The translations under genes and the position numbers were made by a program. A stretch of 64,000 nt of DNA, taken from the NCBI GenBank assembly GCA_007121785.1, contig SKJX01000070.1, forward strand, positions 1-64,000, given 5' to 3'. Positions 20,271 to 41,614 of this stretch are shown piece after piece; the stretch's first letter is position 1, and each line of letters opens with the position of its first letter. The stretch is from Nitriliruptoraceae bacterium. GTDB lineage: Bacteria; Actinomycetota; Nitriliruptoria; Nitriliruptorales; Nitriliruptoraceae. Under the pieces are notes generated by a model. That model ran no database searches. It was given only the letters and a program-made list of their open reading frames with translations, and was not told the origin of the DNA.

Positions 20271-21821
20271 CTAGCCGTGATCGTCGAGTTGACGGAGCTC
20301 ACGTTTGAGCACCTTGCCCATGGCGTTGCGTGGCAGGTCGTCGGAGGCCATCAGCGTGACGTCCTCCAGCCGCTTGAAGGTGGCCAGGTTCTGAGCGACG
20401 AGGCTACGGACCTCGGCGGTGGTGATCGCGCCGTCGCTCTCGGGTACGACGTAGGCCTTGGGGACCTCACCGAGGCGCTCGTGGGGGATGCCGACCACGT
20501 AGGCCTCGGAGATCCGAGGATCGTTCACGAGCACCCGTTCGATCTCCGCGGGGAAGATGTTGTTGCCGCCGCGGATGATCATGTCCTTCTTGCGGTCGAC
20601 GAGGTGGACGACGCCCTCATCGTCGACGTAGCCGACGTCGCCGGTGTGGAAGCGTCCGTTCGCGAGTGCCCGGGCGCTCTCCTCGGGCTTGTTCCAGTAG
20701 CCCAGCATCGGTCGGTACACCCCGGCATCGGGCCCTTCGGCGGTGGCCTGCAGGCACAACTCACCGACCTCGCCCGCCGCCAGTACCCGATCGTCGTCGT
20801 CGACCGCGACGACGTCGATGTGCGGCAGCGGGATCCCGACCCCGTCGTAGGCGATCGGTCCCTCCAGGGCATCGACCGTGACGAGGTTGGGCCCTTCGGT
20901 CATGCCCCACGCCTGACGCAGCTTGAGGTCGAATCGCTCCTCCACACGACGACGTACGTGGGGTGGTGTCGCGGCCGCCCCGAAGGTCACGTACTTCACC
21001 GTCGAGAAGTCCACCTCGACCTCGTCGGAGAGGTTCATGATGTCGAACAGCAGCGTCGGAACGCCGGCGAAGAAGGCCGGGCCGTGGGTCCGCACGGTCT
21101 GGGTGAACGCGACCGGATCGAACCGCTCCACGAGGATGGCGGTGCTGCCGAGGAACCAGCCGAACACGATCCCGATGATCGAGGCGTTGGAGTGGAAGCA
21201 GGGCAGGACCTGGAGGACGTTGTCGTCGCGGTCGAGGCCCAGCTTGTCCCGCAGTCGGGCCATCGACAGTTCCACGTGGTAGTGGCCGAGCATGCTGCCC
21301 TTGGGGTAGCCGGTCGTCCCCGACGTATAGGCCAGCACCGCGAGCTCGTCCTCATCGAGGTCGGGGCCGGTCATCCGGCGACCGCCGCCGTGGGTGAGCT
21401 CATCGACGCCGAGGGCGCCCGCGGGCGGGGGCGCGCCGACGGTGACGACGTGCAGCAGGTCCGGCAGCTGCTCACGGACGGCCAGGATGCGCTCGGTCGA
21501 TCCTGGGTCGGCGAACACCACCTTGGTGCCCGAGTCCCCCAACAGGTAGGCGACCTCGTCGCGCTGGAGCATGACGTTGATCGGGACCTGCGCCGCCCCG
21601 AGCTTCCACGCCGCGTGGGAGGCCATGTGGAACTGCGGCCAGTTCGGCAGCATGACGCCGACGCGGTCGCCCCGGTCGACGCCGAGGTCGGCCAAGCCGC
21701 TGGCCAGGCGGCTGATCTCGGCGTCGAGCTCGCCGTAGGTCCAGGTGTGCTCCTCGAAGACCAAGGCCGGATGATCGGGTCGCTCTGCTGCGTGCCGCTC
21801 GAGAGCGTGGACCAGGTTCAC
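20271..21821 (-). CDS. AMP-dependent acyl-CoA synthetase
   Basis: A 516-residue ANL ligase with YTSGTTGYPKGSM near residue 177, a WGMTEGPN motif near 300, FHTGDVGYV near 392 and a C-terminal AMGKVLKRE lid. The start deserves comment: the ATG at 21827 lies directly against its GGGAG, while the GTG at 21821, two codons on, has the ideal 6-base spacing and gives the common family N-terminus MNLVHALERHAAERPDHPAL. I therefore choose GTG 21821. It is divergent to the quinone-oxidoreductase-like gene; a perfect inverted repeat lies between the two. Confidence 0.92.
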   Translation of the reverse strand: MNLVHALERHAAERPDHPALVFEEHTWTYGELDAEISRLASGLADLGVDRGDRVGVMLPNWPQFHMASHAAWKLGAAQVPINVMLQRDEVAYLLGDSGTKVVFADPGSTERILAVREQLPDLLHVVTVGAPPPAGALGVDELTHGGGRRMTGPDLDEDELAVLAYTSGTTGYPKGSMLGHYHVELSMARLRDKLGLDRDDNVLQVLPCFHSNASIIGIVFGWFLGSTAILVERFDPVAFTQTVRTHGPAFFAGVPTLLFDIMNLSDEVEVDFSTVKYVTFGAAATPPHVRRRVEERFDLKLRQAWGMTEGPNLVTVDALEGPIAYDGVGIPLPHIDVVAVDDDDRVLAAGEVGELCLQATAEGPDAGVYRPMLGYWNKPEESARALANGRFHTGDVGYVDDEGVVHLVDRKKDMIIRGGNNIFPAEIERVLVNDPRISEAYVVGIPHERLGEVPKAYVVPESDGAITTAEVRSLVAQNLATFKRLEDVTLMASDDLPRNAMGKVLKRELRQLDDHG

Positions 21822-21887
21822 GCGCATCTCCCTGTGGTCGGAGCCCGTCGTCGCCCGGATGGGCCGGTGGCTCTCCCTGCCGATCCA

Positions 21888-21906
21888 GCATCTTACGTGA
21901 AGATGC
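21888..21906. promoter_or_regulatory. Perfect 19-base inverted repeat, putative operator
   Basis: GCATCTTACGTGAAGATGC has 7-base arms (GCATCTT and AAGATGC) around ACGTG. It sits in the 188-base gap between divergent starts at 21821 (minus) and 22010 (plus), in an AT-rich patch. Its core TTACGTGAA matches the ACGT motif found at other operon starts. TetR- or MerR-type binding would suit the symmetry; no regulator is encoded nearby. Confidence 0.6.
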
Positions 21907-22009
21907 ATATCGTGTGCTGCGAGGAGTAGTATCCGCCCGGTGGTGCGGATGCGGTCGATCCCGACCGACCGTGCGCAGCCGGCAGGTCGGCGACACGAGG
22001 AGCGATGCC

Positions 22010-23062: not shown

Positions 23063-23716
23063 TCACCACAGCGGCTCGGGGATCTCGTAGCCGAGCGGCT
23101 CATCCCAGCGGTTGCGGGCCGCCACTTCGTGCGCCGGTCGACGCACGGCCAGCCCCCACCGCCCCCGCGGGTACCCGAACGCGACGCAGCAGGCCAGACG
23201 CCAACCCCGGTCCGGCGGGACGCCGAGCAGCTGTGCCACCTCGTCCTGGCTGCGGTTGAGCAGCGTCGTCAGGGCGCTACCGACACCGTCCGCGCGTGCG
23301 GCCAGCATCGCGCTCCACACCGCGGGGAAGATCGATTCCCCGGCGACGTCGGAGCGGACGAACGGCAGCATCAGCAGCGGCGTCTGCTCGAAGTTGTCGG
23401 CCAAGTGCGAGACCGAGCGTTGCATCCGCAACAGTGCCGCGTTGTCCGGGTCGTCGGGATCGTCCCGTGCGACGTCGAGCCGATCCCGGTAGATGGTGTC
23501 CCAGGCCCAGGCCACGTGCTGGCGGTACCACGGGCCGAGTTGGGCCTTGGTCTGCCCGTCATCGACGAGCACGAACCGCCACTGCTGGCTGTTGCCTCCG
23601 CTGGGTGCGCGGATCGCGGCATCCAGGATGCGTGCCTCGACCTCCTGGGGGATCGGATCCGGACGCATCCGTCGCATCGCCCGGGTCGTGTACAGCGCTT
23701 CGTTGAGCTCCATCAT
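23063..23716 (-). CDS. Nitroreductase-family (FMN) protein
   Basis: A 217-residue member of the nitroreductase fold: TTRAMRRMRPDPIP near residue 10 and ILDAAIRAPSGGNSQQWRFVLV near 31-52, with the Ser/Gln/Trp residues that contact FMN. Later SALTTLLNRSQDEVAQLLGVPPDRGWRLACCVAFGYP is the usual C-terminal helix and strand. The ATG at 23716 overlaps the stop of the CoA-transferase gene (ATGA), so it is the last gene of the mutase operon. Family members reduce nitro groups, quinones, enones or dehalogenate phenols; a reductive step on an unsaturated intermediate is likely here. Confidence 0.92.
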   Translation of the reverse strand: MMELNEALYTTRAMRRMRPDPIPQEVEARILDAAIRAPSGGNSQQWRFVLVDDGQTKAQLGPWYRQHVAWAWDTIYRDRLDVARDDPDDPDNAALLRMQRSVSHLADNFEQTPLLMLPFVRSDVAGESIFPAVWSAMLAARADGVGSALTTLLNRSQDEVAQLLGVPPDRGWRLACCVAFGYPRGRWGLAVRRPAHEVAARNRWDEPLGYEIPEPLW

Positions 23717-25449
23717 CCTCCCAGCAGCAGTCGTTCCTCGGTCTCGAGCTTCTTGCTGAGCTGCTCGATCCGCTGTCGACCGCCGAACCGTTCCAGCTCG
23801 GTGAGCGCCAGCGGATCCACCTCGGTGCGCAGCACCTCGACGACGTCGCGGTCGGGCTCGGGCGTGGTCGGTGCTGCCTCGGCACCCGAGATGGTGAAGC
23901 CGGTGGCCTCGACCAGTGCTTCGGCATCCACACCGGGATGGCGCGAGACCACCTGCCAACCCGCAGCCGTGAACTCGAGCACCGCCAGATCGGAGACCAG
24001 TCGGAAGGCCGAACGGGACGCGTGCGGCAGGTGGGCCCGAAGGCTCGCGTCGTCGACGCTCGGCACGCAGGTCCGTCGGCTGTGGTCGGGCAGGTAGGCG
24101 ACGGGTCGGCGGTGCAGCTCGAGGACCTCGGCAGCGCCTGCGGTGCCGGGAAGCCGGACCCGCCCGCCCCCGGGCCCCTTGAGCTCGCGAAGGTTCAGGG
24201 CGCCGTCGCCGTCGATCTGGACGGGGCGGACCGGCTCGAAGGCGAGCCGTCCGCGGAACCGCAGGGCACCGACCAGCTCCTCGGTCGACACCGGCCCGTA
24301 ACCGCTGGTCACCGCGCGCCCCTCGACACCGAGGTGGCCGAGCCACCCGATGTCGGTGCCGCCGAAGCCGTAGGCGTTGAAGTCGACGCCGGGCGCGTGG
24401 GTGCGCCGGGCCAGCAGGACCGCGGCGTAGCCGATCGGGGTGAACGAGCCGAGCACAGCGGTGTCGCCGTCCGCGAGCATCTCCGCCAGACAGACCACGA
24501 TCCGCTCCACCGGGCTCGGAGGAGCGTCTGCGGAAACGTGGAGCGCCGTCACCGCCGGCGTTGGGGCCGGTGGCCGCCGCGAGCCGCCGGCGCCGCTGGA
24601 GCGCAGTCGACGACGGCGGTCGTCATCGATCCGATCGCGCCGCTGCGATTCGTCGACGAGGACGTCCTCGGCCAGCCAGTCGGTGAAGCCGTCGGTGGTC
24701 GCGGCCCGCCGGCTGTAGTCGAGCAGGCATCGCCAGTCCAGGCCGTAGTGCGGCGCGCAGGCCAACGGATGGGCGCCCCACGGCGTCTCGACGACCGCAT
24801 GCACCTCCGCGGGGGAGAGGTAGCGGGCGCCTGCGGGTTCGGGAAGCCGGTCGACCACCCGCTCGGTCGTCACCACGACGCGATCGGCGGCTCGGGCCGT
24901 GACCACGTCGAGGCCGACGGATCTGGTCAGCAGCACATGGCCGTCCGGCGTGGCGGCCTCAGCATGGAGAAGGGCCACGTCCACGGGCAGCGCCGCGCTG
25001 ACCTCCACCGGCTCGCCGGTCACGGGGGAGGTGACCGTCGGGTACCGCGCCGCCAGGGCGGTTCCCACCGGGCCGTGGAACGGCAGGAAGTCCAGCCCCC
25101 GCGAGGCCGCCTCCAGGGCCACTGTCAGCCCATGGCCGGTGTGTTCGTCCAGCTCGATCCGTCCCGACTCGGCCGCGGCCCGGAAGCGCGGTGCGAGCCC
25201 GAACGGGCCGAGGCTGGCGAAGCAGAACACCACCCGTCGGGCGACGTCCGCGCCGACGAGCAGGTCGAGCTCGAGGCTGCCGGTCAGCGACACCACCGTC
25301 AGCTGTCTCCGACCGGCACGGACCAGCTCGCGGACCGCCGCCATCGGCCGAGCCGAGGTCCAGGTGCCCCCGATGGCGACCGTGGCACCGTCGGCGACGA
25401 GGTCACCGACGATCGACAGCGGTCGCAGCCGGCGGCCGGGTTCCGGCAT
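23713..25449 (-). CDS. Fused two-domain CoA-transferase family protein (IpdA/IpdB-like)
   Basis: A 578-residue protein holding both halves of a family I CoA-transferase. The first half (about 1-260) resembles the alpha type: VADGATVAIGGTWTSARPMAAVRELVRAG, then a glutaconate-CoA-transferase-like stretch FLPFHGPVGTAL. The second half (about 320-578) resembles the beta type: NAYGFGGTDIGWLGHLG and RVRLPGTAGAAEVLEL. A charged, Arg-rich linker joins them. The nearest model I know is IpdAB, the ring-opening hydrolase of cholesterol breakdown, whose subunits are separate. The start is uncertain: adjacent GTG 25452 and ATG 25449 are the only candidates after the previous gene's stop, without a strong ribosome site. 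Confidence 0.8.
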   Translation of the reverse strand: MPEPGRRLRPLSIVGDLVADGATVAIGGTWTSARPMAAVRELVRAGRRQLTVVSLTGSLELDLLVGADVARRVVFCFASLGPFGLAPRFRAAAESGRIELDEHTGHGLTVALEAASRGLDFLPFHGPVGTALAARYPTVTSPVTGEPVEVSAALPVDVALLHAEAATPDGHVLLTRSVGLDVVTARAADRVVVTTERVVDRLPEPAGARYLSPAEVHAVVETPWGAHPLACAPHYGLDWRCLLDYSRRAATTDGFTDWLAEDVLVDESQRRDRIDDDRRRRLRSSGAGGSRRPPAPTPAVTALHVSADAPPSPVERIVVCLAEMLADGDTAVLGSFTPIGYAAVLLARRTHAPGVDFNAYGFGGTDIGWLGHLGVEGRAVTSGYGPVSTEELVGALRFRGRLAFEPVRPVQIDGDGALNLRELKGPGGGRVRLPGTAGAAEVLELHRRPVAYLPDHSRRTCVPSVDDASLRAHLPHASRSAFRLVSDLAVLEFTAAGWQVVSRHPGVDAEALVEATGFTISGAEAAPTTPEPDRDVVEVLRTEVDPLALTELERFGGRQRIEQLSKKLETEERLLLGG

Positions 25450-25502
25450 CACGCCGAGGGGCCCCGGCGGCGCGGTCGTGGGTGTTCGGCGGCTCGGTGC
25501 GT

Positions 25503-26333
25503 TCAGGCCGAGGCCTTCCGCGTACGACGCAAGCGCCAGTAGGCGCGGTCTGAGCGGATCCGATCGTCCTCGTCGAGGGTCAGCACCACCGTGCCGGGGC
25601 TCGGCTCCAGGGGTGTGGTGCCACGAACGGCGCCCTCGATGGTGAAGGCGACCGCGATGACCGCGCCATCGACGGCCACGTGCTCGATGGTCATGCGTCG
25701 GTGGGGCCGCGGGAGGACCTCGAGCAGCGCGCGTTCGGCCTCGAGCAGTGCGTCGTGGCCCTCGAGGACCCCGTCCGGACCGGCGCCCAGCTGTTCGAAG
25801 CGGCAGTCGGGCGCGTAGAGCTCGCTGACCATCCGCTCGGGATCGTGGGTCCACAGCTCGGCCAGCCGCTCGGCAAGCGTCGCGGCGGACCGTGTGGAGC
25901 GTGGCCCCCCGGCGCCATCCGGCAACGCCCCCTGCACCGTGCCATCGTCCGGGCGTCGCCGGGACCACTCCCAGTAGGCCGTCTCGTGGGAGATCCGCCC
26001 GTCCTCGGCGAAGCGCCACCACACCACGGCCGGACACGCCATCCGCTGCGGGTCGTCGGGCGAGGTGCCGGTGATCAGGCTCTCGACGACCGTCCATTCG
26101 TGTCCATCGACGACGCGCAGGACGGTGTTGCGGTGGTCGGGGATGAGCTGCTTGAGGCGGTGTTCTGTGGCCAGCAGTGCTTCGGCACCGTGCAGTCGTC
26201 CGAGTTCACCCCAGCCGGCGTGGACCAGCTCCACCTCATCGTGGTAGCACTCGCGCACCATCCGTGCGTAGTCACGCTCCCACAGTTCGCACCACCGCTG
26301 CGCGAACGCGAGCCGGTCGTCCGGACCCGTCAT
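25503..26333 (-). CDS. Tandem SnoaL-like (NTF2-fold) protein
   Basis: A 276-residue protein with two NTF2-fold domains in a row. Domain 1 (about 5-130) runs RWCELWERDYARMVRECYHDEVELVHAG to AVVWWRFAEDGRISHETAYWEW. Domain 2 (about 150-270) runs ERLAELWTHDPERMVSELYAPDCRFEQLG to TVVLTLDEDDRIRSDRAYWRLRR. Each keeps the same helix-strand order, so this is an internal duplication or covalent dimer. Such domains are usually dimeric, which makes the fusion sensible. Likely an isomerase, dehydratase or ligand-binding protein in the operon's pathway. GGGAG precedes the ATG at 26333, which also overlaps the stop of the B12-binding gene by four bases. Confidence 0.85.
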   Translation of the reverse strand: MTGPDDRLAFAQRWCELWERDYARMVRECYHDEVELVHAGWGELGRLHGAEALLATEHRLKQLIPDHRNTVLRVVDGHEWTVVESLITGTSPDDPQRMACPAVVWWRFAEDGRISHETAYWEWSRRRPDDGTVQGALPDGAGGPRSTRSAATLAERLAELWTHDPERMVSELYAPDCRFEQLGAGPDGVLEGHDALLEAERALLEVLPRPHRRMTIEHVAVDGAVIAVAFTIEGAVRGTTPLEPSPGTVVLTLDEDDRIRSDRAYWRLRRTRKASA

Positions 26334-26746
26334 CGTCCGGCTCCCTGCTGGCGCAGCGCCTGATCGAACGCCGCCACGATCCGCTCGGTGGTGGCGCCGG
26401 GACCGAACACCTCGACGACGCCCAGCTGTTCGAGTTCGGCGGTGTCGGCCGGCGGGATCGTGCCGCCCGCGAAGACCCGGATGTCGTCGGCGTCGCGGGC
26501 GGCAAGCTCGGCCACCAGATCGGCGAACACGCGTCGGTGCGCACCGGAGAGCACCGACAACCCGATCGCCGCGACGTCCTCGTCGACGGCCACCTCGGCG
26601 ATCTCGGCAGGCATGCGCCCGGCCGGGAGGTAGACCACCTCGTAGCCGGCGTCGCGAAGCGCGCGTGCGACGATCCGCGCCCCGCGATCGTGCTTGTCGA
26701 GCCCGGCCTTGCCGACCAGGACCCGCAGCGGCGGACGGCTCACCAT
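26330..26746 (-). CDS. B12-binding small subunit of an acyl-CoA mutase
   Basis: A 138-residue cobalamin-binding domain. The B12 motif Asp17-x-His19-x-x-Gly22 (LDKHDRG) places His19 as the lower cobalt ligand. The companion motifs are SVLSGAH near 71-77 and AGGTIPPAD near 103, as in the C-terminal domain of methylmalonyl-CoA mutase and in HcmB/IcmB small subunits. It lacks a GTPase or catalytic barrel, so it must pair with the large subunit encoded at 27609-29306. I use the ATG at 26746, with ACGGAGG seven bases ahead; a GTG one codon later would overlap the previous stop as GTGA. Confidence 0.93.
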   Translation of the reverse strand: MVSRPPLRVLVGKAGLDKHDRGARIVARALRDAGYEVVYLPAGRMPAEIAEVAVDEDVAAIGLSVLSGAHRRVFADLVAELAARDADDIRVFAGGTIPPADTAELEQLGVVEVFGPGATTERIVAAFDQALRQQGAGR

Positions 26747-27612
26747 GCGAACACCTCCGTGGCGGTGCCGTGCAGGAAGGCCGCCATCGCCTCGTCCTCG
26801 AGCGGCAGCGCCCGGGCCTCGCTGGCGCAACGTTCGAACGACAGCAGCGGGTAGTCGGTCGCGAACATCACGCGTCCTCGGCCTCGGGTGGCGATGTGGC
26901 GGACGAGCTCTGACGGGTAGTGCTTGGGTGCCCAGGCCGAGGTCATGAGGAACAGCTGCTCGTACTTCAGGAGCAGCGCGATCACCTCGAGGTGCCACGG
27001 CCAGCCCAGGTGGGTCATCACGACCTTGAGCTCGGGGAAGGTCCGGCAGACCTCATCGATGTGGAGCGGGCGCTGCGGCTCGGCCGGCGTGCGCGGGCCG
27101 GGAAAGCCCACGTTGATCGTCACCGGCACGTCGAGTTCGCAGCACAGTGAGTACAGCGGGTAGTACGTGGCGTCGTTCGGTGGCCGGCCGACGATCGAGG
27201 GCATGAGCTTGATCGCCCTGAAGTCCAGCTCCTCGATGAGCCGGCGCGCCATGCGCACCGCGCCCATGACCCCGTCGCGGACCGGATCCACGCCACCGGC
27301 GGCGATGAAGCGATCCGGGTGCTCAGCGACGACTCCCGCCACCAGCTCGTGGAAGCGCAGCACATCGGGGTACGGCGAGTACTCCTTCATCGACGACAGC
27401 ACGCCGCGGTCCACGCCAGCCGCCGCCATCTGTTCGATGGTCTCCTCGATCGACACGCCGGTCCCGATGCGCTCGGTGGCGTCGAACACCCGCGCGGCGA
27501 CGTCGCTGGGGTGCTCCTGCTCGTGCCAGACCCGGGCTGCGGTCGGGACGTTCGGGTTGATCCACGCGTCGATGATGGGCGTGGCGTTCGTCGGAGCAGA
27601 TACGTCGCTCAC
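26740..27612 (-). CDS. Amidohydrolase-family protein (Amidohydro_2)
   Basis: A 290-residue TIM-barrel protein of the Amidohydro_2 (PF04909) group, which includes decarboxylases such as ACMSD and gamma-resorcylate decarboxylase as well as hydrolases. Seen are IIDAWINPN at the N-terminus, where relatives have a His-x-His pair and here Trp and Asn stand instead, FRAIKLMPSI near residue 133, KVVMTHLGWPWHLEV with the metal-ligand His near 194, and MFATDYPLL with the conserved Asp near 251. The weak first metal motif makes the exact chemistry doubtful. It is inserted between the two mutase subunit genes, with GTGA overlap to the large subunit's stop. Confidence 0.87.
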   Translation of the reverse strand: MSDVSAPTNATPIIDAWINPNVPTAARVWHEQEHPSDVAARVFDATERIGTGVSIEETIEQMAAAGVDRGVLSSMKEYSPYPDVLRFHELVAGVVAEHPDRFIAAGGVDPVRDGVMGAVRMARRLIEELDFRAIKLMPSIVGRPPNDATYYPLYSLCCELDVPVTINVGFPGPRTPAEPQRPLHIDEVCRTFPELKVVMTHLGWPWHLEVIALLLKYEQLFLMTSAWAPKHYPSELVRHIATRGRGRVMFATDYPLLSFERCASEARALPLEDEAMAAFLHGTATEVFAW

Positions 27613-29306
27613 CGGGACACCCCCTGGGCGTCACCGAACGCGTCGCGCAGGCGATCACAGACCTCGCCCATCGTTGCGCCGGCGGCGACCGCGTCACGCA
27701 GCGGGAGCATGAGGTTGTCGTCGGTTTCACAGGTGCGTCGCAGCGAGTCGAGTGCGGCGTTGCTGGCCGCGGTGTCGCGGTCCGCGCGCCAGTGCTCGAG
27801 GCGACGCAGCTGCTTGTTCTCGAGCCGCTCGTCGGCCTCGAAAAGCTCGATGCGGAGCTCAGCGTCGGGGTCAACGTGGCGGTTGACCCCGACCACGGGT
27901 CGCTCGCCGGACTCGATCAGCTGCTGGCTGCGCCAGGCCTCGTCACGGATCTGCTGGTTGACCCAGTCGTCCGCCACTGCACGCTCGATCGCGTCGAGCA
28001 GCGTTTCCCCTTGGCTCTCGAGTTCGCCGATCAGCGCACGGGCCCGCTCCTCGACCTCGTCGGTGAGCGCCTCCACGAACCACGAGCCACCCAACGGGTC
28101 GGCGACCCGCGTCACCCCGAGCTCCTCCCGCAGCAGCTGCTGGGTCCGAAGCGCGATCCGTGCCGAGGTCTCCGTCGGGATCGCCAGCGCCTCGTCCATG
28201 GCGTTGGTGTGCAGGCCGTTGGTCGATGCGAGGACACCGGCCAACGCCTGCACCGCGGTTCGGACGATGTTGTTCTCGGGCTCCTGCGCCGTGCAGGACG
28301 AGCCGGCGGTCTGCACGTGGAACCGCAGCGCCAGGGCGGTGGGGTCACGGACGTCGAACCGGCGGCTCAGTTCCTCAGCCCACATGCGGCGCGCTGCCCG
28401 CAGCTTGGCGATCTCCTCGAAGAAGTCGTTGTTGACCTCGAAGAAGAAACTGAACCGGCGGGCGAAGTCGTTGGGATCGAGGCCGCGGGCCACGCCGGCC
28501 TCGACGTAGGCCAGCCCGGCCGCGAGGGTGAACGCGAGCTCCTGCACCGGGGTGGCGCCGGCCTCGCGCGCGTGGTAGCCGGACACGCCGATCGGGTTCC
28601 ACCGTGGCAGCTCGCGTTGGCACAACTCGATCACGTCGGTCACGAGCCGCACCGAGGGTCGCACGGGCAGGATGTGGGTGCGCGCGCCCCAGAAGGAGGT
28701 CAGCGGATCGTTGAGCATCACCCCGGCGAGCTCCTCGCCGGCCGTGCCCCTGCGCGCACTGGTCTCCTGGTACATCGCGAGGAGCACCGGGGCGGTGCCC
28801 ATGGCCACGATCGACAGGAACGTGTCCTGCGGGTCGAACGCCTCGGTCAGGGTCTGCATGTCGCCCAGGGAGTCGATGGCCACACCGCCCTTGCCGACCT
28901 GCCCCGCGGCGAGGGGATGGTCGGAGTCGAGCCCGGCGAGGGTCGGCTGGTCGTGGACGACGTTGAGCACGGCGCCGCGGTGACCCTGCTGGCCCTGCGA
29001 GATGAGGTAGGCCAGACGCTCGGCCGTCTCCTCCGCGGTGCCCCAGCCGACGATCTGCTGGGTCTGCCAGGCGATGTTGCGGTGGCCGGTCGGGAAGACG
29101 CCACGGGTGTACGGCGGTGATCCCGGCAGGCCGACCCGTTCGGCGACCGTCTCCGCCGAGCCCGGCCAGTCGCGCGGGGTGTAGACGGGCGCCACCTCGA
29201 TGCCGCCGTCGGTCCGGCGGTTCCAGGGCGGCGCCGGGCTGCGCTGCTCGACCCGCTCGCTCGACCGTCGCCACCGGGCGAGATCGTCGTCCTGTCTGCT
29301 GTTCAT
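27609..29306 (-). CDS. B12-dependent acyl-CoA mutase, catalytic large subunit (non-methylmalonyl type)
   Basis: A 565-residue catalytic TIM barrel of the methylmalonyl-CoA mutase family without its B12 domain, as in the split isobutyryl-CoA and 2-hydroxyisobutyryl-CoA mutases. PYTRGVFPTGHRN lies near residues 65-77, LDSDHP near 126-131, SGYHAREAGA near 242-251 with the catalytic His245, SFFFEVNNDFFEE near 289, and LRFHVQTAGSS, ADPLGGSWFVE further on. In my ungapped hand alignment to Propionibacterium MCM, Tyr89 becomes Ile85, Arg82 becomes Ile78 and Arg207 becomes Ala208. The carboxylate-binding set is therefore gone, and the substrate should be a different acyl-CoA. Start ATG 29306 overlaps the sirtuin stop. 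Confidence 0.9.
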   Translation of the reverse strand: MNSRQDDDLARWRRSSERVEQRSPAPPWNRRTDGGIEVAPVYTPRDWPGSAETVAERVGLPGSPPYTRGVFPTGHRNIAWQTQQIVGWGTAEETAERLAYLISQGQQGHRGAVLNVVHDQPTLAGLDSDHPLAAGQVGKGGVAIDSLGDMQTLTEAFDPQDTFLSIVAMGTAPVLLAMYQETSARRGTAGEELAGVMLNDPLTSFWGARTHILPVRPSVRLVTDVIELCQRELPRWNPIGVSGYHAREAGATPVQELAFTLAAGLAYVEAGVARGLDPNDFARRFSFFFEVNNDFFEEIAKLRAARRMWAEELSRRFDVRDPTALALRFHVQTAGSSCTAQEPENNIVRTAVQALAGVLASTNGLHTNAMDEALAIPTETSARIALRTQQLLREELGVTRVADPLGGSWFVEALTDEVEERARALIGELESQGETLLDAIERAVADDWVNQQIRDEAWRSQQLIESGERPVVGVNRHVDPDAELRIELFEADERLENKQLRRLEHWRADRDTAASNAALDSLRRTCETDDNLMLPLRDAVAAGATMGEVCDRLRDAFGDAQGVSR

Positions 29307-30070
29307 CTGGGTTCCTCATGGTGAGGCTCGGTGTCGCGGATGCGCGCGACGAGCTGGGGGAGCAGCTCCTCGGCCGGGCCGGCGAGCCGGTGGTCGGCGG
29401 GTAGGACGGGCTCGGGGTTGACCTCCACGATCGTCGCTCCGGCGACCCGGGCCAGCTGGGGCAGGTCCGCGACCGGGTAGACCTCCGCCGAGGTGCCCAC
29501 CACCAGCAGCGTGGAGCACCGCTCGACCGCGTCGTGCGCGTCACGCAGGGCCTGTCGGGGCAGTGGCTCGCCGAAGAACACCGCGTCCGGTTTGAGTACC
29601 TCCTCGCACGTGGTGCAGCGGGGTGCGGTTCGGGCGGTCAGCGTCCCGCGGACCTCCTCGCGCGTGCGGCGATGATCGCACGTCAGGCAGACCAGCGTGC
29701 GGTTGGAGCCGTGGAGCTCGACGACGTGGGTGCTGCCGGCCCGCTGATGCAGGCCGTCCGCGTTCTGGGTCAGCACGTGGGTGACGACCCCGAGCTGCTC
29801 GAGCTCGGCGATCGCCCGATGGGCAGCGTTCGGTCGTGCCTGCTCGAGGATCTCGTCGAGGTCGAAGAGCATGCGCCACACCTTCTCGGGGTCGCGCTTG
29901 AAGGCCTCGATGTGGCCGTACTCCACCGGGTCGTAGCGGTTCCACAGCCCGTCGTCGCTGCGGAAGGTCGGGATGCCGGAGGCCAGGGACACGCCAGCTC
30001 CGGTCAGGCTGACGACCCCCCGGTCGGTGGCGGCCAGCGCCCGGGCTGCGGCGGCGAACTGATCGGTCAC
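29303..30070 (-). CDS. Sir2-family NAD-dependent protein deacylase (sirtuin)
   Basis: A 255-residue sirtuin. GAGVSLASGIPTFR at 24-37 and TQNADGLH at 101-108 bind NAD, His120 is the catalytic base, and the zinc cysteines are Cys128, Cys131, Cys152 and Cys155. In the acyl pocket, the Tyr and Arg that mark desuccinylases (SIRT5 Tyr102/Arg105) are Leu68 and Leu71 in my hand alignment, so neutral acyl-lysines are the likely targets. It lies between the LLM gene and the mutase gene with 4-base overlaps on both sides. Sirtuins control acyl-CoA synthetases by removing lysine acylation, which fits this ligase-rich region. Confidence 0.94.
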   Translation of the reverse strand: MTDQFAAAARALAATDRGVVSLTGAGVSLASGIPTFRSDDGLWNRYDPVEYGHIEAFKRDPEKVWRMLFDLDEILEQARPNAAHRAIAELEQLGVVTHVLTQNADGLHQRAGSTHVVELHGSNRTLVCLTCDHRRTREEVRGTLTARTAPRCTTCEEVLKPDAVFFGEPLPRQALRDAHDAVERCSTLLVVGTSAEVYPVADLPQLARVAGATIVEVNPEPVLPADHRLAGPAEELLPQLVARIRDTEPHHEEPR

Positions 30071-30996
30071 GCGACCCTCAGGGCGTCGGCCACCTGGTGT
30101 GCGCGGCGGATGAGTTCGTCGACGCTGCCCGCCGGCTCGAGGCCGCCGAGCATCACGGTCAGGCGGGTCGCGCCCGCCTGGCGGCGGCGATCGACCGCCG
30201 CGGGTAGGCGGGCGAGGTCGTCGTCGGTGTGCAGGATGAGGTCGACGCCGAAGTCGACGTCACCTCGGCCGTGGGTGGAAGCCTCCTGGCGTGCCAGTTC
30301 GAGCCCCTCCGGGATCCGTTCGAACGGCAAGCGGGGGTTGACCAGCCATCCGCTGCCGTGCCGTCCCAGCCTCCTGACGGCGGCATCGAAGCCGCCCGCC
30401 TCGCCGCCCCCGATCCACAGCAGGTCGGTGGCCGGGCGTGTGGGGCGAGGTTCGAGCGAGACGGCGTCGAAGCGGAAGTGCTCACCTTCGGCGCTGACAC
30501 GCGGCTCGTCGAACGCCTGCTCCAGGATCCCGAGCGCCTCGTCCATGCGCTGCCCGCGGGTGCGCGGGTCCCAGCCGAGCGCCGCCATCTCCGCCCGCAA
30601 CCACCCCGGGCCGACACCGAGCAGCAGCCGACCGCCGGAGAGCCGGTCGAGCGCGGCCGCCTGCTTCGCGAGCTCCAGCGGATGGCGCTGCGGGAGCACG
30701 ATGACCGAGGTCTCGAGCGCGAGCGACCGGGAGCAGCCGGCCGCGACCGCGAGGAAGGTCATCGCCTCCATCACCGGTTGCCCGGGGTGATGGGCCACGC
30801 GCCCGCCCGCCGCGTAGTGGTAGGCATCGGGATCCCAGGGGTAGGCCAGGTGGTCCTGGCACTGCACCCCGGCGTAGCCGAGCTCCTCGATCGCTTCGCA
30901 GAAGGCGCGTAGCGCCCCGAGATCGGCGAGGCAGGGCTGGTAGTTCACGTAGCCCACGGACACCGGTAGATCCCCGGTGAGGGCGGTCAGGTCCAT
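30067..30996 (-). CDS. LLM-class (F420-type) oxidoreductase, first gene of the mutase operon
   Basis: A 309-residue luciferase-like protein. VGYVNYQPCLADLG opens the barrel; ELGYAGVQCQDHLAYPWDPDAYHY near 43-66, SGGRLLLGVGPGWLRAEMAALGWDP near 130-154 and LLWIGGGEAGGFDAAVRRLGRHGSGW near 205 are the recognisable strands. It is very close to the product of 49553-50485 (same length, most blocks identical), so the two are paralogs from a duplication. ATG 30996 has GGGAG seven bases upstream. Its stop overlaps the sirtuin start. The open frame upstream of the ATG lacks homology. Confidence 0.9.
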   Translation of the reverse strand: MDLTALTGDLPVSVGYVNYQPCLADLGALRAFCEAIEELGYAGVQCQDHLAYPWDPDAYHYAAGGRVAHHPGQPVMEAMTFLAVAAGCSRSLALETSVIVLPQRHPLELAKQAAALDRLSGGRLLLGVGPGWLRAEMAALGWDPRTRGQRMDEALGILEQAFDEPRVSAEGEHFRFDAVSLEPRPTRPATDLLWIGGGEAGGFDAAVRRLGRHGSGWLVNPRLPFERIPEGLELARQEASTHGRGDVDFGVDLILHTDDDLARLPAAVDRRRQAGATRLTVMLGGLEPAGSVDELIRRAHQVADALRVA

Positions 30997-34979: not shown

Positions 34980-36899
34980 GTGAGCGTCATCGGGAGCATC
35001 GATACGGGCGGCACATTCACGGACGGGCACTTCACCCGCGAGGGTCGCTCGGTCCGCGTCAAGGTGGAGACGACCCCGCACGACTTCACCGAGTGCTTCC
35101 TCGACTGCGTCGAGGCTGCCGCCGCGGAGCTTGGGTTCAACAGCCTCCAGGCGATGCTGCTCGAGACGGAGATCCTACGGTTCGCCTCGACCATCGCGAC
35201 CAACGCGATGATCGAGCACAAGGGACCGACGATCGGGGTGGCCGTCTCGCCCGGCCACGAGGACGACCTCTACGCTGACGGGCAGCGGCTCTACGAGCTG
35301 GGCCTGGTCGAGCGCGAACTGGTCACCTCGCTGGCCGAGCCGGGGGACGAGCAGTCGGTCCGCTCGTCGCTGCGTGGCCTGCTCGAGGGCGGCGCGCGGG
35401 TGCTCGTGGTCAGCCTGGCTGGCGGTGACCGCGAGCCCGACACCGAGTTCGGGGTCAAGCGCATCTACGAACGTGCCTATCCGCGCCACTACCTGGGTGC
35501 GGTGCCCTGCCTGCCTGCGACCGAGGTCAGTCTCCGCGAGGACGACGGGCGGCGGACGAACACCGCCGTGGTCAACGCCTATCTGCACCCCGAACTGGTG
35601 CGGGCGCTGTACAAGGCCGACGAGGACGTGCGCTCCCGTGGGTTGCGGCAGCCGCTGCTGATCGTCCACGGTTCGGGTGGGGTGGCGCGGGTGGCCAAGA
35701 CCCGTGCCATCGAGCAGTACAACTGTGGTCCGGCCGGTGGGGTGCACGGCGCCGCCATCATGGCCGAGCGCTACGAGCTCCCGCTGGCCCTGACCATCGA
35801 CATGGGCGGCACGTCGACCGACTACTCGGTCGTGAGGGATCATCAGGTGCCGTTCGACCTGGATCCGCACATCGAAGGTGTGCCGGTCTGGACGCCGCTG
35901 GTCCGGGTCGGTGCCTTCGGCTGCGGGGGCAGTTCGGTGATCAGCGGACGTCGCGACGGGTTCCAGGTCGGCCCCCAGTCGATGGGTGCCGCCCCCGGAC
36001 CGGCCTGCTACGGGCTCGGAGGTACCCAGCCGACGCCCACCGATGCACACGTGGTGCTCGGCACCCTCGACCCCGACAACTACCTCGGCGGGCGGCGCCG
36101 GCTCGATCCCGAACGCGCCCGCAACGCCCTCTCCGGCTTGGGAGACGGATCCGCAGAGGAGATCGCCTGGGAGGTGCACCGGGCCGTGGTCGACTGGGCA
36201 GCCTCCCATCTGCGCTCGGAGCTCCAAAGTGGTGAGGTGAGCCCCGATCAGGCGGCGTTGTTCGCCTTCGGAGGTGCCGGCGGGCTGTTCGGCGCCGATG
36301 TCGCCGCCGCGCTCGGGATCTCCAGGGTCTACGCCTTCGCGGAGTCCGCGGTGTTCTCGGCCTTCGGGGTGTCGACGATGGACGTCACACACATCTACGA
36401 CGTGGCGCTGGCCGACGGTGACCTGGACGCGATCGTCGCCGAGCTCGAGCGGCTCGAGCAGCGCGCCAGGCTCGACATGGCCGGGGAGGGCCTCGAGGGC
36501 CGTGAGATCATCTACCGCCTCGAAGCGGAGCTCGACGACGATCACGCCGAGCTGGATGCGGAGCCGTCCAACTGGCGCGCTGCGGTCGACAAGGTGCTCG
36601 ACCTCGAGCCTGGGTGGCTGCGCCTGCGCGCCTCGGTCCCGGTCGCCCGACCCCGGCTCGATCCCGAGCCAGAGGGCGACGTGGATCCCTCCGCCGCGCA
36701 GCGGGGCCATCGCGAGGTCTTCCTCGGTGGACGGCCGGGGCAGGCCGCGGTCTTCGACCGCGAGCTCCTGCGGCCCGGCATGGACGTCGAGGGTCCGGCG
36801 GTCATCGAAGCGCAGGACACCAGCACGTTGGTGCCGCAGGGATTCCGGTTGCACGTCGACGGCTACCACGCCGGCATCATCACCCCCCACGGAGGCTGA
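34980..36899 (+). CDS. Hydantoinase/oxoprolinase-type subunit A, ketone carboxylase-like (ApcA-like)
   Basis: A 639-residue HyuA-family protein of the ASKHA ATPase fold. The N-terminal phosphate-binding motif is IDTGGTFTD at about 7-15, the second is TIDMGGTSTDYSVV near 271, and GCGGSSVISGRRDGFQVGPQSMGAAPGPACYG follows near 316. It binds ATP and, in acetophenone carboxylase, activates bicarbonate or the ketone enol by phosphorylation. With the next three genes it reproduces the Apc order HyuA, small zinc protein, HyuA, HyuB. Acetone carboxylase and hydantoinase are alternatives but have a different gene order. GTG 34980 follows GGAGGAGGACGC. Confidence 0.9.
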   Translation: MSVIGSIDTGGTFTDGHFTREGRSVRVKVETTPHDFTECFLDCVEAAAAELGFNSLQAMLLETEILRFASTIATNAMIEHKGPTIGVAVSPGHEDDLYADGQRLYELGLVERELVTSLAEPGDEQSVRSSLRGLLEGGARVLVVSLAGGDREPDTEFGVKRIYERAYPRHYLGAVPCLPATEVSLREDDGRRTNTAVVNAYLHPELVRALYKADEDVRSRGLRQPLLIVHGSGGVARVAKTRAIEQYNCGPAGGVHGAAIMAERYELPLALTIDMGGTSTDYSVVRDHQVPFDLDPHIEGVPVWTPLVRVGAFGCGGSSVISGRRDGFQVGPQSMGAAPGPACYGLGGTQPTPTDAHVVLGTLDPDNYLGGRRRLDPERARNALSGLGDGSAEEIAWEVHRAVVDWAASHLRSELQSGEVSPDQAALFAFGGAGGLFGADVAAALGISRVYAFAESAVFSAFGVSTMDVTHIYDVALADGDLDAIVAELERLEQRARLDMAGEGLEGREIIYRLEAELDDDHAELDAEPSNWRAAVDKVLDLEPGWLRLRASVPVARPRLDPEPEGDVDPSAAQRGHREVFLGGRPGQAAVFDRELLRPGMDVEGPAVIEAQDTSTLVPQGFRLHVDGYHAGIITPHGG

Positions 36900-36901
36900 G
36901 C

Positions 36902-37243
36902 ATGTCACGGGTCCACATCACCGAGTACCTGGACATCGACACCGACCGCGAGTTGTGGTTGTGCAACCGATGCGGCCAGGAGTTGATCGGTGCGCGCGAG
37001 AACTACAAGCGCGGGTGCGTCGTCTACGAACGCGACCCGGACGAGATCATGCCGCCGATCTACCCGCCGGAGAAGACGGAGTTCTACCTCGGCGTGTCCC
37101 CGGGCTACGGCGTGTTCGTCGAGTTCTACTGCCCGGGTTGCGGGATCATGATCGAGAACGAGTTGCTGCCGGAAGGATACCCGCCCACGCACGATCTCGA
37201 GCTCGACATCGACGCACTCAAGGCGAAGGCGGAGCAGGCATGA
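36902..37243 (+). CDS. Small zinc-binding carboxylase subunit (ApcB / acetone-carboxylase-gamma-like)
   Basis: A 113-residue hydrophilic protein with two Cys pairs: Leu-Cys-Asn-Arg-Cys-Gly near residues 19-23 and Tyr-Cys-Pro-Gly-Cys-Gly near 77-81, with one more Cys near 38. This four-cysteine layout fits a structural zinc site, as in the 15-kDa subunit of acetophenone carboxylase and the gamma subunit of acetone carboxylase. The start at ATG 36902 comes three bases after the previous stop, with GGAGG overlapping the end of the previous gene; its own stop overlaps the next ATG (ATGA). Confidence 0.85.
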   Translation: MSRVHITEYLDIDTDRELWLCNRCGQELIGARENYKRGCVVYERDPDEIMPPIYPPEKTEFYLGVSPGYGVFVEFYCPGCGIMIENELLPEGYPPTHDLELDIDALKAKAEQA

Positions 37244-39444
37244 ACGAGCACCCGGTGACCGGAGACGGCGATGACGTCCAAGCGGGCGACGGGCACCTGA
37301 CCAACACGATCAACGTCGACATCGGTGGGACCTTCACCGACTGCTTCGTCAGCTACGAGGGCAGGCAGGCGTCGGGGAAGCAGGCGACCACCCGCTACCG
37401 GCTGACCCACGGCTTCAACGCGGCCATCGAGGAGGCCGCTGGCAAGCTCGGGGTCGGCGCTGACGAGTTGCTGCACGAGACCGACCTGGTGCGCTACGCG
37501 ACCACGTTGGCGATGAACGCGCTGATCGAGCGCAAGGGCCCGAAGCTCGGGTTGATCACCACGGCCGGCTACGAAGACACCGTCTTCATCGGCCGGGGCG
37601 CGCAGTGGCACGACGGCCAGCCGATGGAGCGCAAGCGCGAGATCGCACGCGGACGTCGACCGACGCCACTGATCCCTCGGGAGATGATCGTCGGGGTACG
37701 TGAGCGCATCGGCACCGACGGCGACGTGATCGTCCCCCTATGGGAGGACGACGTCCGCGAGGGTCTCCACCGGCTGGTGGATCAGGGAGCTCAAGGCTTC
37801 ATCGTCGCGCTCAACTTCGGGCACGTGAACCCCAAGCACGAGGAGATCGTGCGCGACATCATCCGGGAGGAGTTCCCCGACATCTTCCTCGGGGCCCAAC
37901 CGGTGCTGTTGTCCAGCGAGGTTGCGCCGCGCCGCAACGAGTACCAGCGCAGCATGACGGCGATCCTCTCGGCGTACCTGCACCGGACCTTCGCCGAGGA
38001 ACTGACCGAGCTCTCCGCCGTGCTGCGCGAGCGCGGTTACGGCCACTCGCTGTTCCTCGCGAACAATGCCGGAGGGGTCAACCCGCTCGAGCGCACCACC
38101 GCGGTCCAGACCTACAACGCGGGGCCGGTTGGCGCGGTGATCGGCGGCGAGCACGTCTTGCGTCAGTACGGCTTCCCCAACGCGATCATGACCGACATGG
38201 GGGGGACCTCGTTCGACATCTCCACGGTCGTCGACGTCGGCAGTGACGACGAGGGCGGCCATCACTTCTACGCGCAGATGCCCATGATCGACCGGTTCCG
38301 TGTGTCGATCTCGATGATCGAGACCCGCTCGATCGGTGCCGGCGGCGGGTCCATCGCCCGCTACAACGATCTGCTCGACATCCTGGAGGTCGGCCCCGAG
38401 TCGGCCGGTTCCAACCCGGGCCCCGCTTGCTTCGACCAGGGGGGTGACGAGCCGACCGTGACCGACGCCGACGTCGTGCTCGGCTACGTCAACCCCGACT
38501 ACTTCCTCGGGGGACAGATCCCGCTCAACGCCGAGGCGGCACACGACGCGGTGCGGCGCCACCTCGCCGAGCCCCTCGAGGTCTCGGTCGAGGAGGCCGC
38601 CTACCAGGTCCGACGGATCGTGGACGGGCAGATGGGCAACGAGATCTACAAGGAGACCAACCTCAAGGGGTTCGATCCACGTGAGTTCCGGCTGTTCGCG
38701 CTCGGCGGCGCTGGCCCCACCCACGCTTGCGGCTACGGAGCGCACGTGGAGACACCGGAGATCTACTCCTTCCCGTTCGCGTCGGTGTTCTCGGCCTACG
38801 GGATCGCCAACTCCGACTTCCGACGGGCCTACGAACAGTCGGTCAAGGTGATGCTCTACTCGCCTTCGGAGAAGGAGTGGCTCTGGGACCCTGACGAGTT
38901 CAACGACGTGGTCCGGGGCCTGCAGGAGGAGGCGCTGCGCGACGCCGAGGATCTGGGCGCGGGTCGGGTCCAGTTCTCCCTAGAGCTCGAGATGCGCTAC
39001 GGGTTGCAACCGCACCACACCCGCATCCTCTCGCCGCGGCTGTTCGTCGAGTCCGACGAGGACTGCGAGGAGATCTACCGCGCATTCGCGCGCGAGTACG
39101 AGCGCATCTTCTCCAAGGCGGCCACCTACCTCAAGGGCGGCGTGGAGATCCTCTCGTTCATCCTGTGGTCGGTGATCCCGACCCAGCGCATCCCGCTGCC
39201 TACCTTCGACCTCAGCGGCCCCGAACCCGACGACGCGCTCAAGGGACGGCGCCCGACCTTCTGGGGGTCGACCAAGGGGTGGGTCGAGTCGTCCGTGTAC
39301 GACCTGAGTCAGCTGAAGCCGGGCAACCGCATCGAGGGCCCGGCGGTCGTGGAAGCACCGGACACCACGGTGCTCGTCGACCCCAGCTGGAGCCTGCGGA
39401 TCGACCAGCACGCCAACTCGGTCATGGAGCGGGTGGAGACGTAG
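37240..39444 (+). CDS. Hydantoinase/oxoprolinase-type subunit A, second copy (ApcC-like)
   Basis: A 734-residue second HyuA-type ATPase. Phosphate motif VDIGGTFTDCFV at about 24-35, second ATP motif IMTDMGGTSFDIST near 317, followed by SIGAGGGSIARYNDLLDILEVGPESAGSNPGPACF near 364-398. Its C-terminal half is longer than that of the 34980 paralog, matching the larger 87-kDa subunit of acetophenone carboxylase against the 70-kDa one. ATG 37240 overlaps the preceding stop; long upstream extensions of the frame are shadows of the first subunit gene. Both subunits should sit in one complex with the HyuB-type product of the next gene. Confidence 0.9.
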   Translation: MNEHPVTGDGDDVQAGDGHLTNTINVDIGGTFTDCFVSYEGRQASGKQATTRYRLTHGFNAAIEEAAGKLGVGADELLHETDLVRYATTLAMNALIERKGPKLGLITTAGYEDTVFIGRGAQWHDGQPMERKREIARGRRPTPLIPREMIVGVRERIGTDGDVIVPLWEDDVREGLHRLVDQGAQGFIVALNFGHVNPKHEEIVRDIIREEFPDIFLGAQPVLLSSEVAPRRNEYQRSMTAILSAYLHRTFAEELTELSAVLRERGYGHSLFLANNAGGVNPLERTTAVQTYNAGPVGAVIGGEHVLRQYGFPNAIMTDMGGTSFDISTVVDVGSDDEGGHHFYAQMPMIDRFRVSISMIETRSIGAGGGSIARYNDLLDILEVGPESAGSNPGPACFDQGGDEPTVTDADVVLGYVNPDYFLGGQIPLNAEAAHDAVRRHLAEPLEVSVEEAAYQVRRIVDGQMGNEIYKETNLKGFDPREFRLFALGGAGPTHACGYGAHVETPEIYSFPFASVFSAYGIANSDFRRAYEQSVKVMLYSPSEKEWLWDPDEFNDVVRGLQEEALRDAEDLGAGRVQFSLELEMRYGLQPHHTRILSPRLFVESDEDCEEIYRAFAREYERIFSKAATYLKGGVEILSFILWSVIPTQRIPLPTFDLSGPEPDDALKGRRPTFWGSTKGWVESSVYDLSQLKPGNRIEGPAVVEAPDTTVLVDPSWSLRIDQHANSVMERVET

Positions 39445-39472
39445 ATCTGGGCCGGCGGCCCAAGGAGCAGAC

Positions 39473-41614
39473 ATGGAACGTGACGACCGCGACCGCGAGA
39501 TCCTCACCCGCTGGCGTCCAGAGCCACCGACGGAGCGCGAGCGACGGGCCCTCGAGGAGGTCGACTACGGCGACTTCGAGATCTACCGCAACAAGCTGGA
39601 GTTGGTGTGCTGGGAGGCCTACCAGACCTTCCAGCGCATGGGGGTGTCCCCGATGATCGAGGCTGGCGATGCCGCGGTGGGAATCTACACCCGGCTCGGT
39701 GACCTCGCGGTCGGGATCATGGGGACCCAGCTGCACCTGATCAACGCCTCGATCGGGCTGAAGTGGACGATGCGTCACTTCTACGACGAGGAATCGGTCG
39801 GCATCCGCGAAGGGGACATGTTCTACGTCAACGATGCGCTGTACGGCGGGATCCACAACAGCGACCAGATCCTCTACATGCCGTTCTTCGTCGACGGTGA
39901 GTTGATCGCCTGGGTGGCAGCAGCCTCCCATGAGGTGGAGACCGGCGCGATGGAGCCCGGTGGCAACCCACCGAGCGCGGAGAGCCGCTACGACGAGGGG
40001 CTGATCCTTTCACCGATCCGCATCGGGGAGAACTACACCTTGCGAGCGGATCTGATGGAGATGATGGAGAACCGCATCCGCGACCCCCGGATGCAGACGT
40101 TGGACGTCAAGGCGCGCGTCGCGGCGTGCTCGATCCTCGAGCGCCGCCTCCACGAGGTCGTCGAAAAGAAGGGCACCGAGTTCGTCATCGGTTCGATGCG
40201 TCGGATGATCGACGAGGGCAACGATGCGGCACGCAAGAAGCTGGCCGCCATGAACGATGGCATCTACCGCTCGACCGGGTTCCTCGACAACGCCGGCTCA
40301 GAGCGCTACGGGTTGATCCAGTGCATGGTGGAGGTGGAGAAGCGCGGTGACGAGGCGCACCTGCGCTTCTACGGCAGTCCTCGTGTCAAGGACGGCAACT
40401 TCAACATGTACCCGCACATGATGGTCGCGATGTTCGCGTGTTACATGTACCAGTTCCTGTTCTGGGAGCTGCCTGCGACCACCGGCTACTACACGCCGTT
40501 CTCGTTCGAGTTCCAGAAGGACTCGTTCTTCGACGCCGACGAGGAGGACGCGACCTCCCTGGGGGTGGCCACGACGGGGCAGGTCATCTCGCTCGTACAC
40601 GAGGCGTTCGAGAAGATGAAGTTCGGCTCGCCCTACCACGACCATGTCATGGCTCCGTGGCCTGGCACATCGTCGACCACCGCCTTCGCGGGCCTGAGCA
40701 CCGAGGGTGTCGAGTTCGGAGCCTGGGACCAGGGTCAGCCCAACGGCATCGGGCAGGGCGCACGCTGGGACTACGACGGGCTCGACACGGCCGGGTTCGT
40801 GTGGTGCGCGATCGGCGAGTACCTCGATGTCGAGCAGATCGAGGAGAACTACCCGGTCGCCGCCATCTTCCGATCGCGCTTCTGGCGTGACGGACCGGGG
40901 ATGGGCAAGTTCCGCGGGGGCCGATCGATGACCGGGCTCTACCAGGTGCGCGGGACCCCGATGCTCTATGCGGTGGTGATGGGAGGCTTCTCCGGCCGGC
41001 CGATGGCGCCGGGGCTGTTCGGCGGCTACCCGGGCCGACCACTGGCCGGCGCGCTCATCCGCGACAACAACCTCGACGAGTTGATCGAGCAGGGGCGGGT
41101 CCCGACCGACATCTACGAAGCCGTCGAGCGGCTCGAGGGCGACTGGCAGTTCACCCACAGCAACTGGGGTGAGGAGAAGATCTACCACCATGACTGCTGG
41201 ATCGGCACGGCCCCGAGCGGTCCGGGGTACGGCGACGTCCTCGAACGTGACCCCGACCTGGTGATGAAGGACCTGCGCGAGGATGCGCTCAGCCACCGCT
41301 TCGCGCGCGACATCTACCAGGTGGTCTACGACGAGGAGACCCTGCTGTTCGACGCCGAGGCCACGGAACTCAAGCGCAAGGAAGAACGCGAGAACCGCAT
41401 CGCCCGTGCGACGGCCTACGACGACTGGCAGCCGGGGTGGGCCAAGAAGCGTCCACCCGAACGGGTGCTTCAGGAGTACGGATTCTGGCCGCACGGCTCG
41501 GCGGGACGGATGATGCTGTCGGTGGAGCCGGTCTCCGAGGACTACCTGCCAGTGGAGGTGCGGGACGGCCTCCGACCTCCGGCGGCCGGCATCATCCGCT
41601 CGCGCGATCTCTAG
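39473..41614 (+). CDS. Hydantoinase/oxoprolinase-type subunit B, ketone carboxylase-like (ApcD-like)
   Basis: A 713-residue HyuB-family protein. The core reads FYVNDALYGGIHNSDQILYMPFFVDGELIAWVAAASHEVETGAMEPGG near 117-165, followed by the acidic substrate-site region and the later block GGRSMTGLYQVRG near 482. In acetophenone carboxylase this subunit carries the carboxylation site that joins the activated ketone and carboxyphosphate. Many tyrosines and tryptophans are seen but not assigned. Start ATG 39473 with AAGGAGC upstream, 28 bases after the second HyuA gene. Confidence 0.9.
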   Translation: MERDDRDREILTRWRPEPPTERERRALEEVDYGDFEIYRNKLELVCWEAYQTFQRMGVSPMIEAGDAAVGIYTRLGDLAVGIMGTQLHLINASIGLKWTMRHFYDEESVGIREGDMFYVNDALYGGIHNSDQILYMPFFVDGELIAWVAAASHEVETGAMEPGGNPPSAESRYDEGLILSPIRIGENYTLRADLMEMMENRIRDPRMQTLDVKARVAACSILERRLHEVVEKKGTEFVIGSMRRMIDEGNDAARKKLAAMNDGIYRSTGFLDNAGSERYGLIQCMVEVEKRGDEAHLRFYGSPRVKDGNFNMYPHMMVAMFACYMYQFLFWELPATTGYYTPFSFEFQKDSFFDADEEDATSLGVATTGQVISLVHEAFEKMKFGSPYHDHVMAPWPGTSSTTAFAGLSTEGVEFGAWDQGQPNGIGQGARWDYDGLDTAGFVWCAIGEYLDVEQIEENYPVAAIFRSRFWRDGPGMGKFRGGRSMTGLYQVRGTPMLYAVVMGGFSGRPMAPGLFGGYPGRPLAGALIRDNNLDELIEQGRVPTDIYEAVERLEGDWQFTHSNWGEEKIYHHDCWIGTAPSGPGYGDVLERDPDLVMKDLREDALSHRFARDIYQVVYDEETLLFDAEATELKRKEERENRIARATAYDDWQPGWAKKRPPERVLQEYGFWPHGSAGRMMLSVEPVSEDYLPVEVRDGLRPPAAGIIRSRDL

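Follow-up and report, generated by a model that had tools for sequence, protein, structure and literature searches.

The window analysed here is a 64-kb stretch (positions 1 to 64,000) of contig SKJX01000070.1 from a Nitriliruptoraceae bacterium (GCA_007121785.1). On its minus strand, the listing of open reading frames and a direct reading of the junctions revealed eight head-to-tail genes (30996-23063), all of which the first-pass annotation of this DNA had correctly located and whose families were each confirmed by Pfam and NCBIfam searches (Table 1). Six of the seven junctions overlap, by 4-7 nucleotides: in order, they are GTGA, ATGA, GTGA, a 7-nucleotide (or GTGA) overlap, ATGA, a 53-nucleotide gap and ATGA, with the gap between the SnoaL-like and the CoA-transferase-like genes being the sole non-overlapping one. 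The earlier description of nearly all junctions as ATGA or GTGA overlaps thus stands, with one gap to be set beside it. The unit is bounded at eight genes, since plus-strand genes flank it on both sides, a divergent one starting at 31095 and a convergent one ending at 22993. These genes form a real, tightly packed operon built around a B12-dependent acyl-coenzyme A (acyl-CoA) mutase. A search at the operon for a riboswitch, a sigma-70-like promoter and a terminator found none of the three.

Table 1. Genes of the operon in order, followed by two possible partners downstream
Feature	Position	Strand	Evidence or remark
LLM oxidoreductase, F420-type, TIGR03619 family, first operon gene	30996-30067	minus	Bac_luciferase; TIGR03619 212 bits, cut-off 167
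Sirtuin (NAD-dependent protein deacylase)	30070-29303	minus	SIR2 178 bits
Adenosylcobalamin-dependent acyl-CoA mutase large subunit, 565 amino acids	29306-27609	minus	MM_CoA_mutase PF01642 577 bits
Amidohydrolase_2 family protein	27612-26740	minus	Pfam
B12-binding mutase small subunit, 138 amino acids	26746-26330	minus	TIGR00640 133 bits
Tandem SnoaL-like protein, two domains	26333-25503	minus	Pfam
Fused alpha+beta CoA-transferase-fold protein	25449-23713	minus	closest solved structures AibA, AibB
Nitroreductase-family flavoprotein, last operon gene	23716-23063	minus	Pfam/NCBIfam
AMP-dependent acyl-CoA ligase, possible partner, not in operon transcript	about 21815-20271	minus	Pfam/NCBIfam
VOC protein, possible partner	20177-19458	minus	weak epimerase similarity, TIGR03081 60 bits, cut-off 115

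Residue states of the mutase and its partner enzymes

The mutase is split into two subunits, of which the small one retains an intact DxHxxG motif (DKHDRG), while the best solved relative of the large one is the 2-hydroxyisobutyryl-CoA mutase (4r3u; E 2e-129), followed by methylmalonyl-CoA mutases. To read its residues we used an alignment of the query with 85 other rows from the searched genomes, including HcmA and human MMUT and with one row being a fragment of the query; the numbering is that of the P. shermanii enzyme, transferred from human MMUT via motif positions. The query retains Y243, H244, R283, S285, H328 and Q330, which we take to be the radical and general machinery of these enzymes. 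With the His244/Tyr243 and B12 DxHxxG features of the superfamily present, it belongs to the adenosylcobalamin (AdoCbl) acyl-CoA mutase family. At positions 82, 87, 89, 166, 195, 197, 207 and 361, where most other aligned mutases have R, R, Y/F, T, T, Q, R/Q and Q, the query has I, Q, I, V, V, L, A and N, and the combination of Val195 with Leu197 occurs in none of the other rows. It also bears an insertion of 5-6 amino acids (QQGHRG-AVLNVVHD) near residues 111-117.

These states exclude the characterised identities that we tried. A methylmalonyl-CoA mutase needs Arg207, presumably the residue holding the methylmalonyl carboxylate, and Tyr89, where the query has Ala and Ile; the earlier suggestion that this is no ordinary methylmalonyl-CoA mutase is supported accordingly. 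An isobutyryl-CoA mutase needs Phe89 and Gln207, again Ile and Ala in the query, which also has no fused G domain. Against the HcmAB-type 2-hydroxyisobutyryl-CoA mutase, Ile90 of HcmA is kept while Asp117 is replaced by Val and Gln208 by Ala. The substrate pocket is thus unlike that of every characterised relative tested, and the enzyme therefore probably rearranges a bulky compound outside the characterised set. An ordinary propionate or branched-chain module, in which a drifted methylmalonyl- or isobutyryl-CoA mutase does routine metabolic work beside catabolic genes that have nothing to do with it, would agree with the clear family match (577 bits to PF01642) and with the weakly epimerase-like VOC gene downstream. 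However, both Arg207 (methylmalonyl) and Gln207 (isobutyryl/2-hydroxyisobutyryl) are absent, Q197 and T195 are lost, and the same genome already has at least two ordinary mutases (contigs C203 and C177), which makes such a module quite improbable.

The insertion recurs in a single other row, a paralogue in the same genome (G000, contig C78:7534-9096; L004, L074 7540-9096), which has lost His244. A tree joins the two (Shimodaira-Hasegawa-like approximate likelihood ratio test 90) on long branches for which the tool warns that the join may be false. The loss of His244 from the paralogue, together with the loss from the window mutase of R82, T195 and Q197, which contact CoA or the thioester in related enzymes, would fit a protein acting on a non-CoA ester (e.g. 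a carrier-protein thioester) or serving as a non-catalytic scaffold. This strikes us as improbable, given that His244, Tyr243, Gln330 and the B12 DxHxxG motif are kept and that both mutase subunits are encoded in one operon.

AibA and AibB are the top-scoring solved structures for the two halves of the fused CoA-transferase-fold enzyme (99.6 and 86 bits), ahead of IpdA/IpdB and glutaconate CoA-transferase. The catalytic glutamate stands in a YESG or FEAG motif of the beta half in most homologues from the searched genomes; this Glu54-beta is missing from the window protein, which hence does not fit a type I CoA-transferase. The position of IpdA Glu105, a residue that we take to be essential and located by comparing 6co6 with 6coj, which differ there, is Gly in the window protein and in its relative on contig C78, which speaks against an IpdAB hydrolase. 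AibA also has Gly at this position. A Glu of the window protein aligns with AibB Glu72, while AibB Cys56 meets an alanine/tyrosine region; Glu72 can act as a proton source and Cys56 is dispensable in AibB (PMC7756340). The missing transferase glutamate, the Gly shared with AibA and the Glu at the Glu72 position make a decarboxylase-like role, or some other cleavage of a C-C bond, more plausible to us than CoA transfer.

On strand 1, where the HxH metal motif would stand, the amidohydrolase has IDAW, and it therefore does not fit a metal-dependent, ACMSD-like amidohydrolase; most of its closest homologues share the ID-x-W. The solved structure closest to the amidohydrolase is that of BB4693 (3irs), a protein without an assigned function. 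These residue states bear on the ring-opening step of the first-pass annotation, which would have the fused enzyme hydrolyse a cyclic beta-keto acyl-CoA in the manner of IpdAB in steroid degradation and the amidohydrolase act as a second hydrolase. The fold is indeed common to IpdA/IpdB (78 bits to 6con_A); IpdAB, which is not a transferase, likewise lacks the transferase glutamate (PMC5380842); and in another genome (G004, contig C21) an IpdA-like pair that keeps Glu105 shares a contig with a divergent mutase. Yet Glu105 is Gly in both the window protein and its C78 relative, AibA/AibB outscore IpdA/IpdB, and the amidohydrolase is without HxH. The step is thus not supported, and we regard ring opening as unlikely.

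The sirtuin has a SIR2 domain, the Cys4 zinc site and the catalytic HG; the Tyr/Arg pair of desuccinylase-type sirtuins was not seen on reading the sequence by eye. A second sirtuin-mutase adjacency occurs in genome G080 (L026 1501-3810), where a sirtuin gene divergently adjoins an ordinary mutase. The nitroreductase (23063-23716) shows a weak partial match to BluB, the enzyme making the B12 lower ligand (63 bits against a cut-off of 150), which is probably family resemblance only.

The neighbourhood and related loci

The source genome is available as a draft of 3.8 Mb, split over 251 contigs and with a completeness of 88%. The operon (71.6% guanine plus cytosine against 68-69%) fits the rest of this draft in composition and tetranucleotide profile, so a foreign or chimeric origin is not indicated. 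The window as a whole is a catabolic island: it encodes several acyl-CoA ligases and an acyl-CoA dehydrogenase besides ABC transporters of the branched-chain type. Pfam finds four AMP-dependent acyl-CoA ligase-like genes in it (1939-3531, 8818-10413, about 20271-21908 and 42094-43479), the last preceded by a hydantoinase A/B pair resembling acetone/acetophenone carboxylases (36274-41614).

The earlier statement that the set lacks an acyl-CoA ligase and a meaB-type chaperone holds inside the transcription unit; beyond it, a ligase and a VOC gene lie on the operon's strand 1.2 kb downstream, past one plus-strand gene, and MeaB genes are found on contigs C97 and C78 of the same genome. Contig C78 holds both the only other insertion-bearing mutase and the only other homologue of the fused enzyme in this genome, within a catabolic cluster that also encodes a B12 subunit, MeaB, an LLM protein, a ligase and a VOC protein (39% identity with the one downstream of the operon), with the fused-enzyme homologue being a CoA-transferase-fold pair without the glutamate. 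Since this cluster has a ligase and a related VOC protein, the two downstream genes of the window may belong to the same pathway as the operon.

Comparison of the fused enzyme across genomes recovered one clade comprising the window protein, the split pair of C78 and a pair in genome G048 (contig C67), with support of 94/90 in the alpha tree and 81/88 in the beta tree. All three loci have a divergent acyl-CoA mutase and a B12 subunit within about 13 kb. The control was the remaining homologous loci of the class, 31 in number, with up to 15 kb of flanking sequence either way as far as the contigs reached; one of them had a mutase, the above-mentioned G004 locus with its IpdA-like pair. Leaving out the window, the link is seen in 2/2 clade loci versus 1/31, a hypergeometric probability of 3/528 (about 0.006) that has to be read with many control contigs being short.

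No orthologous mutase was detected in 100 relatives, 397 genomes of the phylum, 251 of a second phylum and 72,556 plasmids, the best matches being plain mutases at 53%; these phylum searches scored only a few candidates per genome in a sample that is not exhaustive. In the 397 phylum genomes the insertion pattern was confined to the window mutase and its C78 paralogue, other matches being without it. Likewise, the amidohydrolase had no match above 40% outside the window in 66 class genomes, and a broad genome scan with a single-protein query yielded two distant relatives only. Five genome matches (f26) share an NVAYD motif with the query; they are not orthologues because they have no insertion and, in the four aligned, Gln replaces His244. 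These sequences (L110-L114 and L117-L121, five genomes) constitute a subfamily with YQIREKG and, where aligned, Gln at His244, and the loci fetched with coverage have a B12 subunit 1-7 kb off. Other divergent acyl-CoA mutases with odd active-site residues are found in related actinobacteria (L152 8289-9866, L154 7631-9097, L158 9166-10680), each with a B12 subunit close by.

Homologues of the amidohydrolase (31-41% identity) lie in acyl-CoA catabolic clusters of actinobacteria and haloarchaea; those of Hyphomicrobiales immediately precede acyl-CoA ligases. Most of these loci have no mutase. On the Natronosalvus plasmid NZ_CP101160.1 (L097 5873-10143), which has the order IclR, mutase, amidohydrolase, cupin, LLM and acyl-CoA dehydrogenase, a mutase adjoins an amidohydrolase of the window's family, with a divergent LLM gene of the TIGR03619 family; Haloterrigena pHTUR01 (L098) has the same gene set without the mutase. 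The haloarchaeal mutases are not orthologues because their residues are of the isobutyryl type.

A candidate route and its likeness to known systems

Read directly from the sequence are the order and overlaps of the genes, their families and the states of their residues; from these we infer an order of steps, a substrate and a role for every product, apart from the membership of the mutase in its family. The split AdoCbl-dependent mutase, non-standard and with a presumably hydrophobic pocket, would move a carbon branch of the acyl-CoA, after which the non-transferase CoA-transferase-fold enzyme would break the C-C bond next to the thioester, with AibAB-type decarboxylation more likely than IpdAB-type ring hydrolysis. 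The LLM enzyme, the nitroreductase and the SnoaL pair might adjust the redox state or double bonds, and the sirtuin might remove acyl-lysine from acyl-CoA enzymes. A nearby acyl-CoA ligase would probably activate the substrate, and a MeaB encoded elsewhere in the genome would load the cofactor. We give an even chance to the operon being a catabolic one, with these steps, for a branched or alicyclic acyl-CoA that lacks the free carboxylate of methylmalonyl-CoA. In its favour are the gene overlaps within a bounded unit, the residue patterns of the mutase and the fused enzyme, the divergent mutases near all three loci of the fused-enzyme clade, the pairing of homologues on C78, the Natronosalvus cluster and the catabolic-island setting.

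Several observations weigh against this proposal. The full eight-gene order was not found in 66 class genomes, 397 phylum genomes, 251 second-phylum genomes or 72,556 plasmids, and is unique within the sample searched; the shorter order of large subunit, amidohydrolase, small subunit and CoA-transferase, whose conservation the first-pass annotation had put forward as a check, was likewise absent from every genome searched. That annotation would have abandoned the pathway were the order unique and the flanking genes found elsewhere without the mutase. This is largely the case, with amidohydrolase homologues beside acyl-CoA ligases without a mutase and most CoA-transferase homologues with no mutase nearby, while partial links recur. 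The mutase link is not exclusive either: four genomes of family f19 have a fused-enzyme homologue with an ordinary mutase 3-10 kb away, and the homologues in G079 and G139 have the transferase-type FEAG glutamate. The links of the amidohydrolase to LLM and nitroreductase genes looked recurrent but are not significant, being at background level in the fetched loci (p 0.57 and 0.18, respectively). Finally, a pocket altered at this many positions might also belong to a protein without catalytic activity, or to one whose substrate is not an acyl-CoA.

To our knowledge, the reactions described for AdoCbl acyl-CoA mutases are few: methylmalonyl, ethylmalonyl, isobutyryl, pivalyl/isovaleryl and 2-hydroxyisobutyryl. 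We raise, tentatively and as a claim that may well fail, a new specificity class whose hydrophobic pocket would take a bulky acyl group, branched or alicyclic, and which together with a non-transferase C-C-cleaving partner would provide an undescribed route round a branch that blocks beta-oxidation. The novelty lies in the specificity of the mutase and the company of its gene; the enzyme itself is of a known kind. With its radical residues intact, its pocket rebuilt and a narrow set of partners around it, the mutase could be tested for a new rearrangement of carbon skeletons, which might serve to degrade branched or alicyclic compounds or provide a scaffold for engineering.

Among known systems, HcmAB (4r3u) resembles the operon mutase in its split large and small subunits, in being the best PDB match and in the Ile at the Tyr89 position; it differs at Asp117 (Val in the operon mutase) and in the Gln at the Arg207 position (Ala), and has no counterpart of the 5-6 residue insertion. 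Known 2-hydroxyisobutyryl mutase operons hold ligase and chaperone together (hcl-hcmAB/rcmAB-meaH; PMC7176365), whereas the window unit has neither ligase nor meaH inside and the chaperone is encoded elsewhere in the genome. Methylmalonyl-CoA mutase shares the fold, His244/Tyr243 and the DxHxxG subunit, while the operon mutase lacks Tyr89, Arg207, Gln197 and Thr195 and is not one fused chain. With isobutyryl-CoA mutase/IcmF, a group that also handles pivalyl/isovaleryl-CoA (PMC10481361), it would share a non-carboxylate type of substrate, without the Phe89/Gln207 pattern or the fused G-protein domain. As for the fused enzyme, the steroid ring hydrolase IpdAB is alike in fold and in lacking the transferase Glu, and unlike in having Glu105 where the window protein has Gly. 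The 3-methylglutaconyl-CoA decarboxylase AibA/AibB (5mzw) differs in not being one fused chain and in its Cys56, which is not conserved in the window enzyme; it nevertheless is the best match to both halves, with the shared Gly at the Glu105 position and a Glu aligned to Glu72.

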